From Planctomycetota bacterium (GTDB lineage: Bacteria > Planctomycetota > UBA8742 > UBA2392): a stretch of 64,000 nt of DNA. The notes under the pieces are model-generated. The model did not search any database, was not told where the DNA came from, and saw nothing but the letters and a program-made list of their open reading frames with translations. The stretch is taken from NCBI GenBank assembly GCA_027493625.1, contig JAOSKM010000001.1, forward strand, positions 1,938,657 through 2,002,656. Direction: 5' to 3'. Within the stretch, counting starts at the first letter, position 1. Each line of letters opens with the position of its first letter. Made by a program: the position numbers and the translations under genes. This document shows, piece after piece, positions 9,924 to 17,971 of the stretch.

Positions 9924-10015
9924 GGGACAGGCACCTTCGGTGCCTGTCCCTTTCAGTGTGCACACGCATCCGCCATGGACGCCGAAAGGGGACAGTCGCC
10001 AAGGTGACTGTCCCC
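9924..10015. repeat. Two-hairpin dispersed repeat, copy 1
   Basis: The first hairpin is GGGACAGGCACC-TTC-GGTGCCTGTCCC (9924-9950), followed by TTT. After a ~37-base spacer containing CCATGGACGCCGAAA comes GGGGACAGTCGCC-AA-GGTGACTGTCCCC (9988-10015) and then GGTTGTGG. The same arrangement recurs at 11448-11542, so this unit and that one flank the gene at 10041-11438 as direct repeats. Confidence 0.9.
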
Positions 10016-10040: not shown

Positions 10041-11438
10041 ATGGAAGCCCCGCCCGACGAAAAGGCTTTGCAGGAACTGGCCACGGCCACGCGCGGCCGT
10101 GCGGCCGGCGGCAAGTGGCGCATTTTGGTGGCGGCGCTGCTGCTGGCGGCGCTGGTGGTCGTGGGCTTCGCGGTGGTCACGGAAAGCATCCGGCAGTCCG
10201 GCATTTCCAGCGCGAAGAAGGAAGCCCGCGAGGCCGCAGAGGCCGTGCAGGCGCGCTACGCGCATGTGAACGACTGGCCGGCCTGGTACCGCAACCGCCT
10301 GCCGGAAAACTGGGGCGGCGACAAGCTGCAGGCATGGATCGACTCCGCCCAGCCAGTATCTGACAAGCAAGGAGACCATGTGCTTACGGATCTCCTCGTC
10401 GCGATGGATTGGGAACTCCGCGGAGTCGATGACCCCTCCCTGCCAGCCGACAAAGCAAAGGTCGCCGAGATTCTGCGCGAGATCGAGCCGCTGATACCCG
10501 GCCTTTCCGCTCTCGCCGGCTACCAAAACTTGGCCCTGCTTCCCCACTTCGCGGAGGGCTTTCCGGGGTACAGAGTGATGCCGACCATCAGAGCATTCCA
10601 GCTGATCCGGTTCCGCGTTGCGGCAAACATGTTTCTTGGCAATTGGGCCGCTGCCTGGCAGGAACTTCTGCTGCTGCATGAGGTTGTCAAACGTATGGAA
10701 CCAGCCTCATCCATCGTCCCGTCGCGCATTGTCTACGGCATGGAAAAGTGGTGCATGGACCTTGTTGCGCTCGGCCTGAGGCACGTTGCAGCCCCCCGCG
10801 AGATTCTGGAGCAATGGGCAGTTGAACCGGCCCAGAATCCGGATCGCCTGCTCGAACTGGTTGACGTTGAGCTGGCAATGATCGCGCAGGCATCACGGCT
10901 CCGTGACAGCGAAGAATGGATTGCCGACTTCGGAATCTGGTCTGAAGAAGTCCCGGATGGCAGCGGCTGGTTTGGTTACCTGCAACCTGAACTCAGTTGG
11001 CGCGAACGCAAACAAGCGTGGTCCGGCCCTCAGGAGTCGGCCGAGTTCGCATCCGGGTACATCAACGGCATGCTCGCTGCGGCAGACGGGCTTCGGGCAG
11101 GGATAGCGCCGGAACAAATCCGAGTCGAGGCGGACGTCTGGTTCTACCAGCAAGTGCGGTTAGAGGCGGAAATGACGTTGCGGCGAAGGTTCACCGCCTG
11201 CCTGGCGCGCATCCGGCTGGCGGAGCTGGACCACGCAGACGAAGCAGCGCTGCAGGACGCCCTGGACACACTGGCCGCCGAATACCCGGAGCTCGAGCTG
11301 GAGCGTACACCCGGCGGGATCGTGCTGAAATTCCGCGACACCCCGGACAACCGCAAGTACCTCAACTACGACGAAGAGGGCGGCGAGTCGTTCCACGAAG
11401 CCAATCCGCCCGTCACACTGAAACCGCTGAAACCGTAG
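10041..11438 (+). CDS. Single-pass membrane protein of unknown function
   Basis: I do not recognise this 465-residue protein. A hydrophobic helix at about residues 29-50 (WRILVAALLLAALVVVGFAVV) follows a short cytoplasmic N-terminus. The rest is a soluble, largely helical domain with many Trp and Leu residues (e.g. NDWPAWYRNRLPENW, WELRGVDDPSLPAD). Parts of the middle (about 10360-11000) are visibly less GC-rich than neighbouring genes. It stands alone between two direct copies of a two-hairpin repeat, which is consistent with a mobile or acquired cassette, though that is only an inference. The ATG at 10041 has no clear ribosome-binding site. Confidence 0.7.
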   Translation: MEAPPDEKALQELATATRGRAAGGKWRILVAALLLAALVVVGFAVVTESIRQSGISSAKKEAREAAEAVQARYAHVNDWPAWYRNRLPENWGGDKLQAWIDSAQPVSDKQGDHVLTDLLVAMDWELRGVDDPSLPADKAKVAEILREIEPLIPGLSALAGYQNLALLPHFAEGFPGYRVMPTIRAFQLIRFRVAANMFLGNWAAAWQELLLLHEVVKRMEPASSIVPSRIVYGMEKWCMDLVALGLRHVAAPREILEQWAVEPAQNPDRLLELVDVELAMIAQASRLRDSEEWIADFGIWSEEVPDGSGWFGYLQPELSWRERKQAWSGPQESAEFASGYINGMLAAADGLRAGIAPEQIRVEADVWFYQQVRLEAEMTLRRRFTACLARIRLAELDHADEAALQDALDTLAAEYPELELERTPGGIVLKFRDTPDNRKYLNYDEEGGESFHEANPPVTLKPLKP

Positions 11439-11447
11439 ACTCGCCAA

Positions 11448-11542
11448 GGGACAGGCACCTTGGTGCCTGTCCCTTTTCGGTGTGCCGGCGCCAGGTCAGC
11501 CATGAACGCGGAAAGGGGACAGTCACCAAGGTGACTGTCCCC
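11448..11542. repeat. Two-hairpin dispersed repeat, copy 2
   Basis: GGGACAGGCACC-TT-GGTGCCTGTCCC (11448-11473), a spacer with GCCATGAACGCGGAAA, then GGGGACAGTCACC-AA-GGTGACTGTCCCC (11515-11542) and GGTTGTGG. It is in the same orientation as copy 1 at 9924-10015, with the same internal order and closely similar spacer ends. Confidence 0.9.
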
Positions 11543-11612: not shown

Positions 11613-13007
11613 TTAGCGGCGCTGGAAGGCGGCTTGCGGCTGGGCTACGCCGGCCTTGGTGCGCTCTTCCTTGAACTTGGTGAGGGTAATCCGGTTACCC
11701 TCGTCGTTGTACTCGACCTTATCCACGCACTTGGTCATCAGCATGATGCCCAGGCCGCCGAGCTTGCCGGCCTTGCGGCGCTCGCGCACGCGGTCAACGG
11801 CGCCGTCTTCGGGCGCCACGTACAGGCGCCAGTCGAAGCCCTTACCCTGGTCGCTCACCACCACGGTCAGGCGCTTGGCGTCGAGGTAATACTCCACGTC
11901 CACGAAGCGGTCGCGGCGGTGGCGGTTACCGTGCTGGGCCGCGTTGCTGCAGGATTCGCGGAAGGCCGTGCACATCTGCACCTGCTGGCCTTCGTTCAGG
12001 CCGCTGTCTGCAAACAGGCGCGCGGCGATCTCGTTGGCGCGGTCGATCCAGCGGTCCTCGGTGGGGAAGCGGAAGTACACTTCCTGCTCGAAGACGGCCT
12101 GTTCTTCCGTGCTGCGCTCAAGCTCGCGTTCGCCGAGCTCGAGCATGTCCTTCACTTCGAAGGGCTGCGAAAGCTGCTCGTTGCCCAGGAAGCGGAAGGT
12201 CTTGAACCAGGCCTTTTCCTTGCCGGCGGGCAGCATCTCGAGGATCGGCACCAGCGAGCTGACCTTGTGGGTCTTGGCATACTCGACCACGGCGTCGGCG
12301 TCCGGCATCACGCAGTCGATGATGATCAGGCTGATCGGGTCTTCAATCAGGTACTGCTTGGCCTGGTCGAGGCTGGTGACCACTTCGACGATCCAGCCCG
12401 CCTTGCTGAAGTGGTACTCGATGGTCTTGATGAACGGGTCCTCGGCGTCTTTGCAGCCGAGCAGGATCTTGTTGGCGCGGGCCGATTCAAGCTGCTCTTT
12501 CAGCTTGCCCGACGCCTCGAACTCGACGGCGCCGCCCTGCACGGTGTCAATCAGCTGCGGCGCGGCGCTGAACTCCACGCTGCGCTTGGAAACGGCGATG
12601 GTGCGCACGCCCTCGTGGCCGTCTTCGGCGGGGACGATCTGCGCCTTGCGTTCTTTCAGGCGGAACTGGCCGAAGCCGCTGAGCTCAACCACGTCGTGGC
12701 GCATCACCTTGCCGATGATGGCGTCAACCAGCGCGCCGGCCACGGATGCCACGTCGCTGGTGTTCAGGCCGTGGGCGCCTTCGATGGCGTCCTGCGTGTC
12801 GGCGCCGGGCACGGTGGCGCTGCCCTTCTTGCCCTTGGCGGGGCAGGAAATGCGGCCCAGGTTCGACAGCTCAACGGATTTGCCGGCCACCAGTGACTGG
12901 CGCACAAAGTCCAGAATCGCGTCAACAACCTGCTGCGTAACCCCTGCGTCAACGCCGGCTGCCCGGGCGACTTCGGGAATGATCTCGGATGAATTCCAGG
13001 TCTTCAT
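11613..13007 (-). CDS. Fusion: two HU/IHF-like domains, receiver-like domain, GHKL serine-kinase-type ATPase
   Basis: The 464-residue protein combines modules not normally linked. Residues 1-58 resemble the helical half of an HU/IHF subunit (QQVVDAILDFVRQSLVAGKSVELSNLGRIS, in pieces). Residues 82-155 give a second HU-like unit with VVELSGFGQFRLKER and a shortened arm. Residues 180-298 look like a receiver domain with an acceptor-like aspartate D231 in IIIDCVMPD. Residues 311-445 form a HATPase domain of the RsbW/SpoIIAB kind: N-box FRESCSNAAQHGN (E351, N355, H359), G1 DQGKGFDW and G2 GGLGIMLM. No phosphoacceptor histidine domain is seen. A role as a DNA- or nucleoid-bound anti-sigma/serine kinase is inference. 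The ATG at 13005-13007 starts the first HU domain directly. Confidence 0.85.
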   Translation of the reverse strand: MKTWNSSEIIPEVARAAGVDAGVTQQVVDAILDFVRQSLVAGKSVELSNLGRISCPAKGKKGSATVPGADTQDAIEGAHGLNTSDVASVAGALVDAIIGKVMRHDVVELSGFGQFRLKERKAQIVPAEDGHEGVRTIAVSKRSVEFSAAPQLIDTVQGGAVEFEASGKLKEQLESARANKILLGCKDAEDPFIKTIEYHFSKAGWIVEVVTSLDQAKQYLIEDPISLIIIDCVMPDADAVVEYAKTHKVSSLVPILEMLPAGKEKAWFKTFRFLGNEQLSQPFEVKDMLELGERELERSTEEQAVFEQEVYFRFPTEDRWIDRANEIAARLFADSGLNEGQQVQMCTAFRESCSNAAQHGNRHRRDRFVDVEYYLDAKRLTVVVSDQGKGFDWRLYVAPEDGAVDRVRERRKAGKLGGLGIMLMTKCVDKVEYNDEGNRITLTKFKEERTKAGVAQPQAAFQRR

Positions 13008-13081: not shown

Positions 13082-13849
13082 TTACCGTCCGCCCAGCTCT
13101 TTGGCGCGATCCGACAACTCGCGCTGGTCGACCACACCCTTGCGCTTCAGCAGCTCGATCACGCTGTCATACAACTCCTGCTCGGTGATTACGCCCTTTT
13201 TAAGCAGGACAGGAATCACGGCCGCGCGCAGGTCTGCGCGCGTAATGGCGGTGGTGCTGAGCTTGGCACTGGCGTCGGAAAGCCGCTCGCGCACGCTGTC
13301 GACCAGTGAGGACTCGGTGGCGTCGCGCAGGGCGGCCAGGCTGCCCCTGCTGGCGGGGCGCAGGCGCCCGGCGCTCTTGGGCTTCAGGGCGGGCTCGCTC
13401 TGCGATTCCTGTTCCTTGATGTCGAGATACTCGGCAATCGCGCGCTTGATCGAGTCGCGGGTCGCCAGTGTGGTTTCGATCTTCTTGCCGGTCACGAACT
13501 GCAGCTCGTCCAGCGCTTCGTAGTCGGTGGGGTCGCTCATCGCGACCGTCAGCACGTTGGCGGTCTGGTGCACCGGGATCAGGTGGTGCTTTTCGATGAT
13601 GTCCTTGGGCACGGCCTTCAACAGGTTGACCGGCAGGATCATGTTCGCCAGGTCCGTGACTTCCATGTTGTAGTGGCGCGCAATCTCGCGGGTCAGGGCC
13701 TCGTCGGTCATGTAGCCGAGCTTGACGATGATGCCGCCGATCTTGCCGCCCAGGGACTTCTGGTACTCGATCGCAGTATCCAGCTGCTCTTTGGTAATCA
13801 GCTTCTTCTTGAGAAGCATCTCACCCAGCTTCAAGCGCTCAAAGGCCAT
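13082..13849 (-). CDS. Stand-alone MshEN / GspE N-terminal-domain protein
   Basis: MshEN (T2SSE_N) domains normally form the N-terminus of type II secretion or type IV pilus ATPases and can bind c-di-GMP. Here a 255-residue protein has this domain (KLGEMLLKKKLITKEQLDTA, LGGKIGGIIVKLGYMTDEAL, DYEALDELQFVTGKKIE) but no ATPase. A Ser/Ala-rich linker (about residues 150-190) leads to a C-terminal helical segment that repeats the theme VLLKKGVITEQELYDSV. I start at ATG 13847-13849, where GGGG lies nearby, rather than five codons upstream. It lies 74 bases upstream of the HU-REC-ATPase gene on the same strand, so the two could be co-transcribed. The paralogous full-length ATPase is at 30967-32859. 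Confidence 0.8.
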   Translation of the reverse strand: MAFERLKLGEMLLKKKLITKEQLDTAIEYQKSLGGKIGGIIVKLGYMTDEALTREIARHYNMEVTDLANMILPVNLLKAVPKDIIEKHHLIPVHQTANVLTVAMSDPTDYEALDELQFVTGKKIETTLATRDSIKRAIAEYLDIKEQESQSEPALKPKSAGRLRPASRGSLAALRDATESSLVDSVRERLSDASAKLSTTAITRADLRAAVIPVLLKKGVITEQELYDSVIELLKRKGVVDQRELSDRAKELGGR

Positions 13850-14192: not shown

Positions 14193-16010
14193 GTGACCGA
14201 ACTCCAGCGCCGCATCGACAAGTTCCGCCTGCACCTGATGCTGCGCCTGGCCGGCTGGGCCGCGCTGCTTGGCCTGCTGGTCGCCCTGCTGGTCGTGATC
14301 TTCGCACCCTGGCTGCGCGACGGCATCGGCCTGCCCGGCTACTGGCTGACCATCGCGCTGCCGCTTGCCTTCCCGCTGGCCTACGTGTTCTTCACCCTGC
14401 TGCGCCGCCCTGACGACCGTACCGTGGTGCTGGCCGCCGACGCATGGTGCCGGGCCGAGGGCTCGATCATCAGCGCCTGGGAACTCGAACGCGAACACCC
14501 CGACAGCCCCTTCAACAAGCCGGTCGCGGACAAGGCCGTGCGCATGCTGGACAACCACCGGCTGCCTGAGCCGCCGCTGCTTCGAAAAGCCCTCCTCGCG
14601 CTGCTGGTGATGCTGGCGCTGCTGCCGCTTTCGCGCTTCGTTTATGCCCAGATGCAGGAATCCGAGCAGGATGAACAGAAGCAGGCCGCCGAGCGCAAGG
14701 TGGACACACCGCCCGAAGAGGCCGAGAAGCTGGCCCAGGAGGCCGCCGCAGCCGCCGAGCGCGCCAAGCAACTGGGGGCGAAACAGCAGGAGCAGCTTGC
14801 CGACGACCTCGAGCAGGCGGCCCGCAACGCCCAGGCCGGCGGCCAGGACAAGGAACGCGCCCTGCGCGACGCCAACAGCCTGGTCGACCGGGCCAAGGCC
14901 CAGACCGAAGCCCAGCAGCGCCGTGAAGAAGCGCGCGAAGCACTGGCCGAAAGCGAGGCCACACGCGACCTGGCCGAAGCCATTCAGCGCTCCGATCACC
15001 AGGCGGCCCGCACGGAGATCGAAGATCTGGTCGAGCAGGTCTACAACAAGGACGGCCGTATCGACCCCGCCCGCGCGGAAGAGTTGCGCCAGGCCGTACA
15101 GAAAGCCCGCGAACAGGCCCCGCAGGACGCCCGCCTGCGCCGCGCCGCGGAAACCCTGGAACAGCTGCTGGAACAGCAGGCCCTGGAACAGGCCCAACAG
15201 CGCCGCGAACAGACCGAGAAGGACATGCGGGCATCGGGCATGGACCCGGAGGCGGTCAAACAGGCCATGGAGAAACTCCAGGACGTGGACGAACGCGCCC
15301 TGGCCCGCGCCCTCGAAGAACTGGCCAAGGCCGCCAGCCCCCTGCGCGACCTGGACGTCAGCGGCCGCGAAATGGAGGAGCTGCTGAAACAGCTGGAGGC
15401 CGGAAAGCTGGACCCCAGTCAGGCCGAGGAAATGGCCGAGGCCGCCCGGCAGCTCAGCGAGCGGCTGGAACTGGATGCGGAAACCCTGCGCGAGATGTTG
15501 AAGGACGGCCGTGAGTTCGAGGGGGCTGAAGAAGACCGCCGAAGAGATGATGAAAACATGCCAGAGGGAGAGCGCCCGACCGGACCCGATCAGGTCCCGG
15601 AGTGGGCCAGGCAGGCCATGCCCGAAGACTGGAAGCAGGCCTGGAAACAGGCGGGCGAGGAAGGCCGCGAGCCCGGCAAGGGCACAGGCAGCCGGCAGGG
15701 CTCCGGCGAGGACGGCCGGGAAGGCCCCGACGGCGGCAAGGGCGCAGGTGAAGGAAAGACCGGCGACCCGACCAGGCCGGTCGAAGGCGGAGGTATAGAA
15801 GAAGGCGTAGAGACCAGCGACACCGGCCAGGGCGAAAAGGACCCCGACAAAGACCCCGAACGCCTCGACCCCAACAAAGCGGGCGACGAGAAGGCCCGGC
15901 GCGAAGGCAGCGGGCGATCAGCAGAAAGCAGCGGACTGAACACCCGCGATGAAGAAGAGCGCCTGCCACGGCGCTATCGCGAAGCCGCCCGCAAGTACTT
16001 CGAACGGTAG
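14193..16010 (+). CDS. Membrane protein with long Gln/Glu-rich coiled coil
   Basis: The 605-residue protein starts at GTG 14193 with GAGGGA upstream. It has two transmembrane helices near the N-terminus (about residues 19-40 and 48-70) and a third at about 131-152, then a long charged coiled coil (residues about 155-450). The final ~130 residues are low-complexity Gly/Glu/Asp/Lys with repeated DGREGPDGGKGAGEG-like text. The layout resembles DUF4175-type envelope proteins of other phyla, but I see no decisive motif, so this stays a description. No partner gene is obvious. Confidence 0.75.
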   Translation: MTELQRRIDKFRLHLMLRLAGWAALLGLLVALLVVIFAPWLRDGIGLPGYWLTIALPLAFPLAYVFFTLLRRPDDRTVVLAADAWCRAEGSIISAWELEREHPDSPFNKPVADKAVRMLDNHRLPEPPLLRKALLALLVMLALLPLSRFVYAQMQESEQDEQKQAAERKVDTPPEEAEKLAQEAAAAAERAKQLGAKQQEQLADDLEQAARNAQAGGQDKERALRDANSLVDRAKAQTEAQQRREEAREALAESEATRDLAEAIQRSDHQAARTEIEDLVEQVYNKDGRIDPARAEELRQAVQKAREQAPQDARLRRAAETLEQLLEQQALEQAQQRREQTEKDMRASGMDPEAVKQAMEKLQDVDERALARALEELAKAASPLRDLDVSGREMEELLKQLEAGKLDPSQAEEMAEAARQLSERLELDAETLREMLKDGREFEGAEEDRRRDDENMPEGERPTGPDQVPEWARQAMPEDWKQAWKQAGEEGREPGKGTGSRQGSGEDGREGPDGGKGAGEGKTGDPTRPVEGGGIEEGVETSDTGQGEKDPDKDPERLDPNKAGDEKARREGSGRSAESSGLNTRDEEERLPRRYREAARKYFER

Positions 16011-17943: not shown

Positions 17944-17971
17944 GGGGACAGGCGCCGCGGCGCCTGTCCCC
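17944..17971. repeat. Dispersed hairpin repeat, single-hairpin copy
   Basis: GGGGACAGGCGCC and GGCGCCTGTCCCC flank a 2-base centre, followed by TTTT and CGCGTTCATGGCATCTGTC. It may act as the terminator of the YmdB gene ending 20 bases upstream. Confidence 0.8.

Follow-up and report, generated by a model that had tools for sequence, protein, structure and literature searches.

The window analysed here, a stretch of 64,000 nucleotides from a member of the Planctomycetota, carries a gene (positions 11613-13007, minus strand, ATG start) whose 464-residue product is, with a probability of roughly 60%, the kinase of an undescribed planctomycete partner-switching module. The protein joins in a single chain two HU-like domains, a receiver-like domain and a Bergerat (GHKL) ATPase of the RsbW/SpoIIAB type, a fusion that is real and widespread in the Planctomycetota. 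It is classed here with the partner-switching systems but outside the RsbW equivalog family of NCBIfam (47.9 bits, with a cut-off of 145 bits). A search of the open-access literature found neither HU-pseudoreceiver-RsbW proteins nor an association between MshEN proteins and STAS-zinc-ribbon proteins described.

A conserved fusion of HU, receiver-like and ATPase domains

The initial annotation had read the gene as a fusion of two HU-like domains, a receiver and an RsbW-like ATPase, and the open reading frame, the profile searches and the structural comparisons all agree with this architecture. In Pfam, the protein matches Bac_DNA_binding twice (7.5e-16, 58.6 bits with a cut-off of 22.4) and HATPase_c_2 (1.1e-20), both above cut-off, together with Response_reg below it (0.0039), and the RsbW, IHF and response-regulator models of NCBIfam match under their equivalog cut-offs. 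An AlphaFold model built with 41 relatives (mean pLDDT of 84) contains two HU folds, as had been expected for residues 1-155, followed by a receiver fold and a Bergerat fold, and its Foldseek matches include single-chain IHF, PhoB-type receivers, SpoIIAB/RsbW and the receiver-Bergerat protein LvrC. The full-length protein was recovered in 15 of 15 further genomes searched of the same family, with 70-100% identity, and homologous fusions with about 37-41% identity occur outside the family, in other classes and orders of the Planctomycetota. A chimera resulting from a frame error, which the initial annotation had considered, is thus ruled out, since the single open frame is kept in 16/16 family genomes and in other classes. 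The named genomes among the relatives belong to Planctomycetota, mostly uncultured, such as Candidatus Uabimicrobium amorphum, and the wider pseudo-receiver-HATPase family reaches 95 of the 246 genomes of the phylum (E<=1e-45). The N-terminal module can differ: among 41 aligned relatives, it is HU in 30 and STAS in three.

As for the surroundings of the gene, a scan for sigma-70-type promoters between 11440 and 14250 gave no candidate, and the flanking genes of the plus strand (10041-11438 and 14193-16010) show no Pfam match at E<=0.001. Near-perfect 26-bp palindromes, GGGACAGNCACCNNGGTGNCTGTCCC, are found at 9989-10014, 11448-11473, 11516-11541 and 17945-17970 (0 expected in shuffled sequences); with six exact copies genome-wide, they constitute a REP-like repeat.

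Regarding the N-terminal part, the HU identity of the segments formerly placed at residues 1-58 and 82-155 stands, whereas their limits had to be redrawn with Pfam, AlphaFold and Foldseek. HU1 covers residues 1-67 (12807-13007, minus strand) and is short-armed, while HU2 (residues 68-157; 12537-12806, minus strand) bears a beta arm, poorly defined in the AlphaFold model, and is acidic and devoid of the RNP tip motif by charge and motif counts. Both domains superpose on single-chain IHF (PDB 2IIF) over 162 columns at 3.1 Å (Foldseek), so that, on the basis of one monomer model and this match, HU1 and HU2 are modelled as a single intrachain HU/IHF-like pseudo-dimer. The superposable fold is therefore shared with HU/IHF proteins, especially with that engineered single-chain form, but HU1 is nearly armless, the surface is acidic, the RNP arm motif is absent from the clade of the window protein and signalling domains are fused to the pair. 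The basic surface and the RNP/proline arm tip of DNA-binding HU/IHF proteins are both missing, and the N-terminal 175 residues have a net charge of -4, whereas the genome's two canonical HUs reach +13 and +12. Because of this acidic character and the missing arm motif, the nucleoid binding assumed in the initial annotation is doubtful for the window protein, although some relatives do keep a basic HU part. The HU region stays near-canonical and basic in some of them (L044, Candidatus Uabimicrobium), with KNPRTG retained and HU2 at +13, and several other lineages show a K/R-DPxxG arm motif. Within the family, identity is 38-70% for HU as compared to 85-99% for the pseudo-receiver and ATPase; taken singly, HU1 shows 38-72% and HU2 41-91% between members whose ATPase is 92-99% identical. 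In a tree of the pseudo-receiver-ATPase region built by a quick method, the proteins with two HUs group together with moderate support (SH-aLRT of 90), which is consistent with one HU duplication.

Receiver domains depend on an acidic pair, a phospho-accepting Asp, a Thr/Ser and a Lys. The domain at residues 179-305 (12093-12473, minus strand) has a receiver fold, supported by AlphaFold and Foldseek in spite of the Pfam score below cut-off, but its sole canonical active-site residue is D231 (12315-12317, minus strand), present in 41 of 41 relatives. The acidic pair (mostly replaced by V/C and P/K), the Thr/Ser (by Y/L/F/H) and the Lys (by E/Q) occur in 0/41 each. By established receiver chemistry, and as far as residue counts can tell, the domain is a pseudo-receiver, and a canonical receiver is ruled out by the loss of four of the five phosphorylation residues in every relative. 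From the receiver-like domain of the initial annotation, the fold and the position of D231 are thus retained and the phosphorylation chemistry is not, so that gating by the receiver in the two-component sense is not supported. Since D231 is invariant, its phosphorylation may still proceed through an unusual route.

The RsbW-type ATPase and its putative STAS partner

The C-terminal domain (residues 306-447; 11667-12092, minus strand) is recognised as a Bergerat ATPase by Pfam, NCBIfam, AlphaFold, Foldseek and residue counts. The N-box (E351-N361, ESCSNAAQHGN; 11925-11957, minus strand), with invariant E351, N355 and H359, and the G1 and G2 boxes are where they had been annotated, and all these residues are identical in 41/41 relatives, including the N-box glutamate, which in SpoIIAB is the catalytic base. 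Apart from kinase activity, RsbW-type domains have one further known role, the binding of sigma factors.

A likely substrate is offered by a protein in which a STAS domain is joined to a zinc-ribbon-like CxxC...CxxC segment and a degenerate HATPase (STAS-ZnR). Its gene is the next one downstream of the kinase in five loci (L063, L065, L069, L073 and L082), in four of which (L063, L069, L073 and L082) a second MshEN gene follows, and it adjoins the kinase in L049, L056 and L066. In L067, L068 and L075, the kinase itself carries a STAS domain at the place where HU otherwise sits. Over the 246 genomes of the phylum, STAS-ZnR was detected (E<=1e-38) in 65 of the 95 kinase genomes (E<=1e-45) and in 0 of the 151 without the kinase, with a Fisher p of about 2e-36 that, like any such presence/absence statistic, is inflated by shared ancestry. 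Among the 30 kinase genomes lacking STAS-ZnR, 23 have STAS in cis on the kinase, and seven show neither form at the thresholds used. A phospho-acceptor-type serine occupies 37 of 37 cis and trans STAS domains when aligned with SpoIIAA, the phospho-site of which we take as the reference position. The intact boxes, the adjacent or fused STAS and its invariant serine together point to a STAS-directed kinase, in line with the RsbW-type serine kinase suggested in the initial annotation.

In the family of the window, STAS-ZnR is encoded at a locus separate from the kinase. The copy of the window's genome (L151 5831-6942; G000:C1:1101833-1102935) is split over two frames in the assembly and intact in same-genus genomes, reflecting either an assembly error or a real frameshift. 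Next to it, in the opposite, divergent orientation, lies an MshEN gene (L151 3445-5445) encoding a proline-rich protein of 666 residues, which is apparently the system's second MshEN. The same genome also contains, near C1:936-941 kb, a separate canonical SpoIIE-RsbW-STAS cassette.

Among known systems, the anti-sigma serine kinases RsbW and SpoIIAB with their STAS partners RsbV and SpoIIAA share with this one the Bergerat fold and boxes as well as a serine-bearing STAS domain, linked here by context, fusion and co-occurrence. However, HU and pseudo-receiver domains are added to the kinase, zinc-ribbon and degenerate ATPase parts to the STAS protein, and an MshEN gene is a constant neighbour. 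RsbW-like kinases combined with a receiver in one chain and with a STAS target are also known in SypE/SypA of Vibrio fischeri and HsbR/HsbA of Pseudomonas, but SypE and HsbR, as generally described, have a PP2C phosphatase domain, a normal receiver and no HU, which sets them apart from the window protein. The best structural match is LvrC of Leptospira (PDB 9QIH; 314 columns in Foldseek), with the same order of receiver and RsbW-like Bergerat domains. LvrC is described as a receiver-Bergerat anti-sigma protein in which a canonical N-terminal receiver, phosphorylated by a histidine kinase, precedes the ATPase (PMC13269768), without HU, whereas in the planctomycete protein a double HU precedes a pseudo-receiver.

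The MshEN neighbour

Directly upstream of the kinase gene, 74 bp before it and on the same strand, lies a gene (13082-13849, minus strand) for a 255-residue protein with an MshEN domain (Pfam 4e-21; NCBIfam c-di-GMP motif at 61.8 bits, cut-off of 38) and a C-terminal helical extension. This adjacency, which the initial annotation does not mention, is the most conserved feature of the kinase locus: of the 51 X-pseudoreceiver-HATPase loci, 43 show it, or 43 of the 47 evaluable ones once those with too little upstream sequence (L054, L057, L059 and L066) are left out, the evaluable loci without it being L037, L072, L074 and L080. A same-strand upstream MshEN was present in 0/12 FHA-HATPase-type sister loci and in 0/17 more distant RsbW-like matches, mostly from other phyla (L092-L108). 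With only seven MshEN genes in the 4.7 Mb of the window's genome, the odds of a chance adjacency are small. The sister family (L076-L078, L081, L084, L085 and L088), also from Planctomycetota, combines FHA with the same HATPase type and has no upstream MshEN; in another FHA-type locus (L091), a weak MshEN ORF is encoded divergently. Further flanking genes vary by lineage (MraZ, M24 peptidase, Fe-dependent repressor, AHSA1, Cap15), and the flanks of the kinase loci revealed no conserved pathway gene other than those for MshEN and STAS, so the target pathway cannot be read from context. In one locus (L055 6060-6719), a Cap15-type cyclic-dinucleotide receptor, of a CBASS effector family, is directly downstream of the HU-kinase gene.

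The best Foldseek match of the partner model is MshE with c-di-GMP bound, and the PilB-N/PilZ complex is matched as well. MshEN domains bind their ligand through the motif RLGxx...G...LxxxLxxQ, present twice, although a perfect motif is perhaps not required and some MshEN domains have lost binding (PMC5013675). The window partner keeps the tandem motif (13673-13831, minus strand) with 24 + 5 + 24 residues and the Q32 position, together with substitutions at others (R9 to K, R38 to K, G18 to K and Q61 to H). Across 38 partners, the spacing is likewise kept, with Arg at R9 in 6 (Lys in 19), Gln at Q32 in 34 and Gln at Q61 in 9. Compared to the c-di-GMP receptors VcMshE and TtPilF (PMC5013675, PMC11731258), the partner belongs to the same family, with the exact spacing and a matching fold, but it has no following AAA/traffic ATPase and several ligand-contact positions are substituted. 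Binding of c-di-GMP by the partner is plausible.

Proposed mechanism, alternatives and meaning

The proposed pathway would centre on the Bergerat domain, likely phosphorylating the conserved STAS serine, either in trans on the STAS-zinc-ribbon-degenerate-ATPase protein, in the case of HU kinases, or in cis where STAS replaces HU. Judging from its genomic context, the MshEN partner would likely regulate the kinase. More tentatively, it might do so by binding c-di-GMP, itself an uncertain ligand, or a related molecule, and by gating the kinase via the pseudo-receiver. The HU part, for its part, could serve mainly for assembly, and as a DNA tether perhaps only in lineages with basic HU surfaces.

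Other readings of the protein have to be weighed against the STAS kinase. Rather unlikely, though the fast evolution of HU relative to the pseudo-receiver and ATPase, the degenerate receiver and the anti-sigma binding of RsbW-type domains would all suit it, is a scaffold in which HU and pseudo-receiver dimerise or dock, and the Bergerat domain acts as an ATP-controlled binding switch that sequesters a sigma factor or a STAS protein without any kinase activity; the N-box glutamate, kept in every relative, and the serine, kept in every STAS domain, argue for catalysis instead. Also improbable, and close to the initial annotation, is a kinase or anti-sigma factor that sits on the nucleoid and is switched by phosphorylation of D231. 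The HU folds of the AlphaFold model and the invariant D231 would fit, and LvrC, the target of a histidine kinase and a proposed anti-sigma factor (PMC13269768), offers a precedent, but LvrC is described with a canonical receiver whereas the remaining phosphorylation residues are gone from all 41 relatives here, and an acidic HU part without the RNP motif speaks against a nucleoid location.

Very improbable is a role of the MshEN-kinase pair in the control of type IV pili or secretion, with the MshEN protein binding pilus or PilZ components in place of c-di-GMP and the kinase as the local regulator of the machine. MshEN domains are classically found in PilB/GspE ATPases, and the imperfect ligand motif and the PilB-N/PilZ match could be explained in this way; however, the scanned neighbours included no recognisable pil or gsp gene, and the flanks, with MraZ, M24 peptidase, Fe-dependent repressor and others, differ by lineage. 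A STAS-directed kinase within a partner-switching module is thus the preferred reading, although the separate STAS-ZnR locus of the window's family, with its two-frame copy in this assembly, the imperfect MshEN ligand motif, the seven kinase genomes with neither form of STAS and the influence of shared ancestry on the statistics count against it. The most ambitious form of this reading, which can be put forward only tentatively, is a phylum-wide, c-di-GMP-responsive partner switch of four proteins (the first MshEN, the HU-pseudoreceiver-RsbW kinase, the STAS-ZnR-degenerate-ATPase protein and the second MshEN), where the HU pseudo-dimer would, at least in some lineages, anchor the kinase on the nucleoid.

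Planctomycetota are known for their unusual cell and chromosome biology. If it exists, the four-protein system would link the level of a second messenger, the chromosome and transcription in these bacteria. The module would also exemplify the recruitment of HU into a signalling enzyme, as well as a STAS partner that alternates between a separate protein and a fused domain. A widespread module of MshEN-type sensor and RsbW-type kinase would offer a handle on the control of gene expression in planctomycetes.
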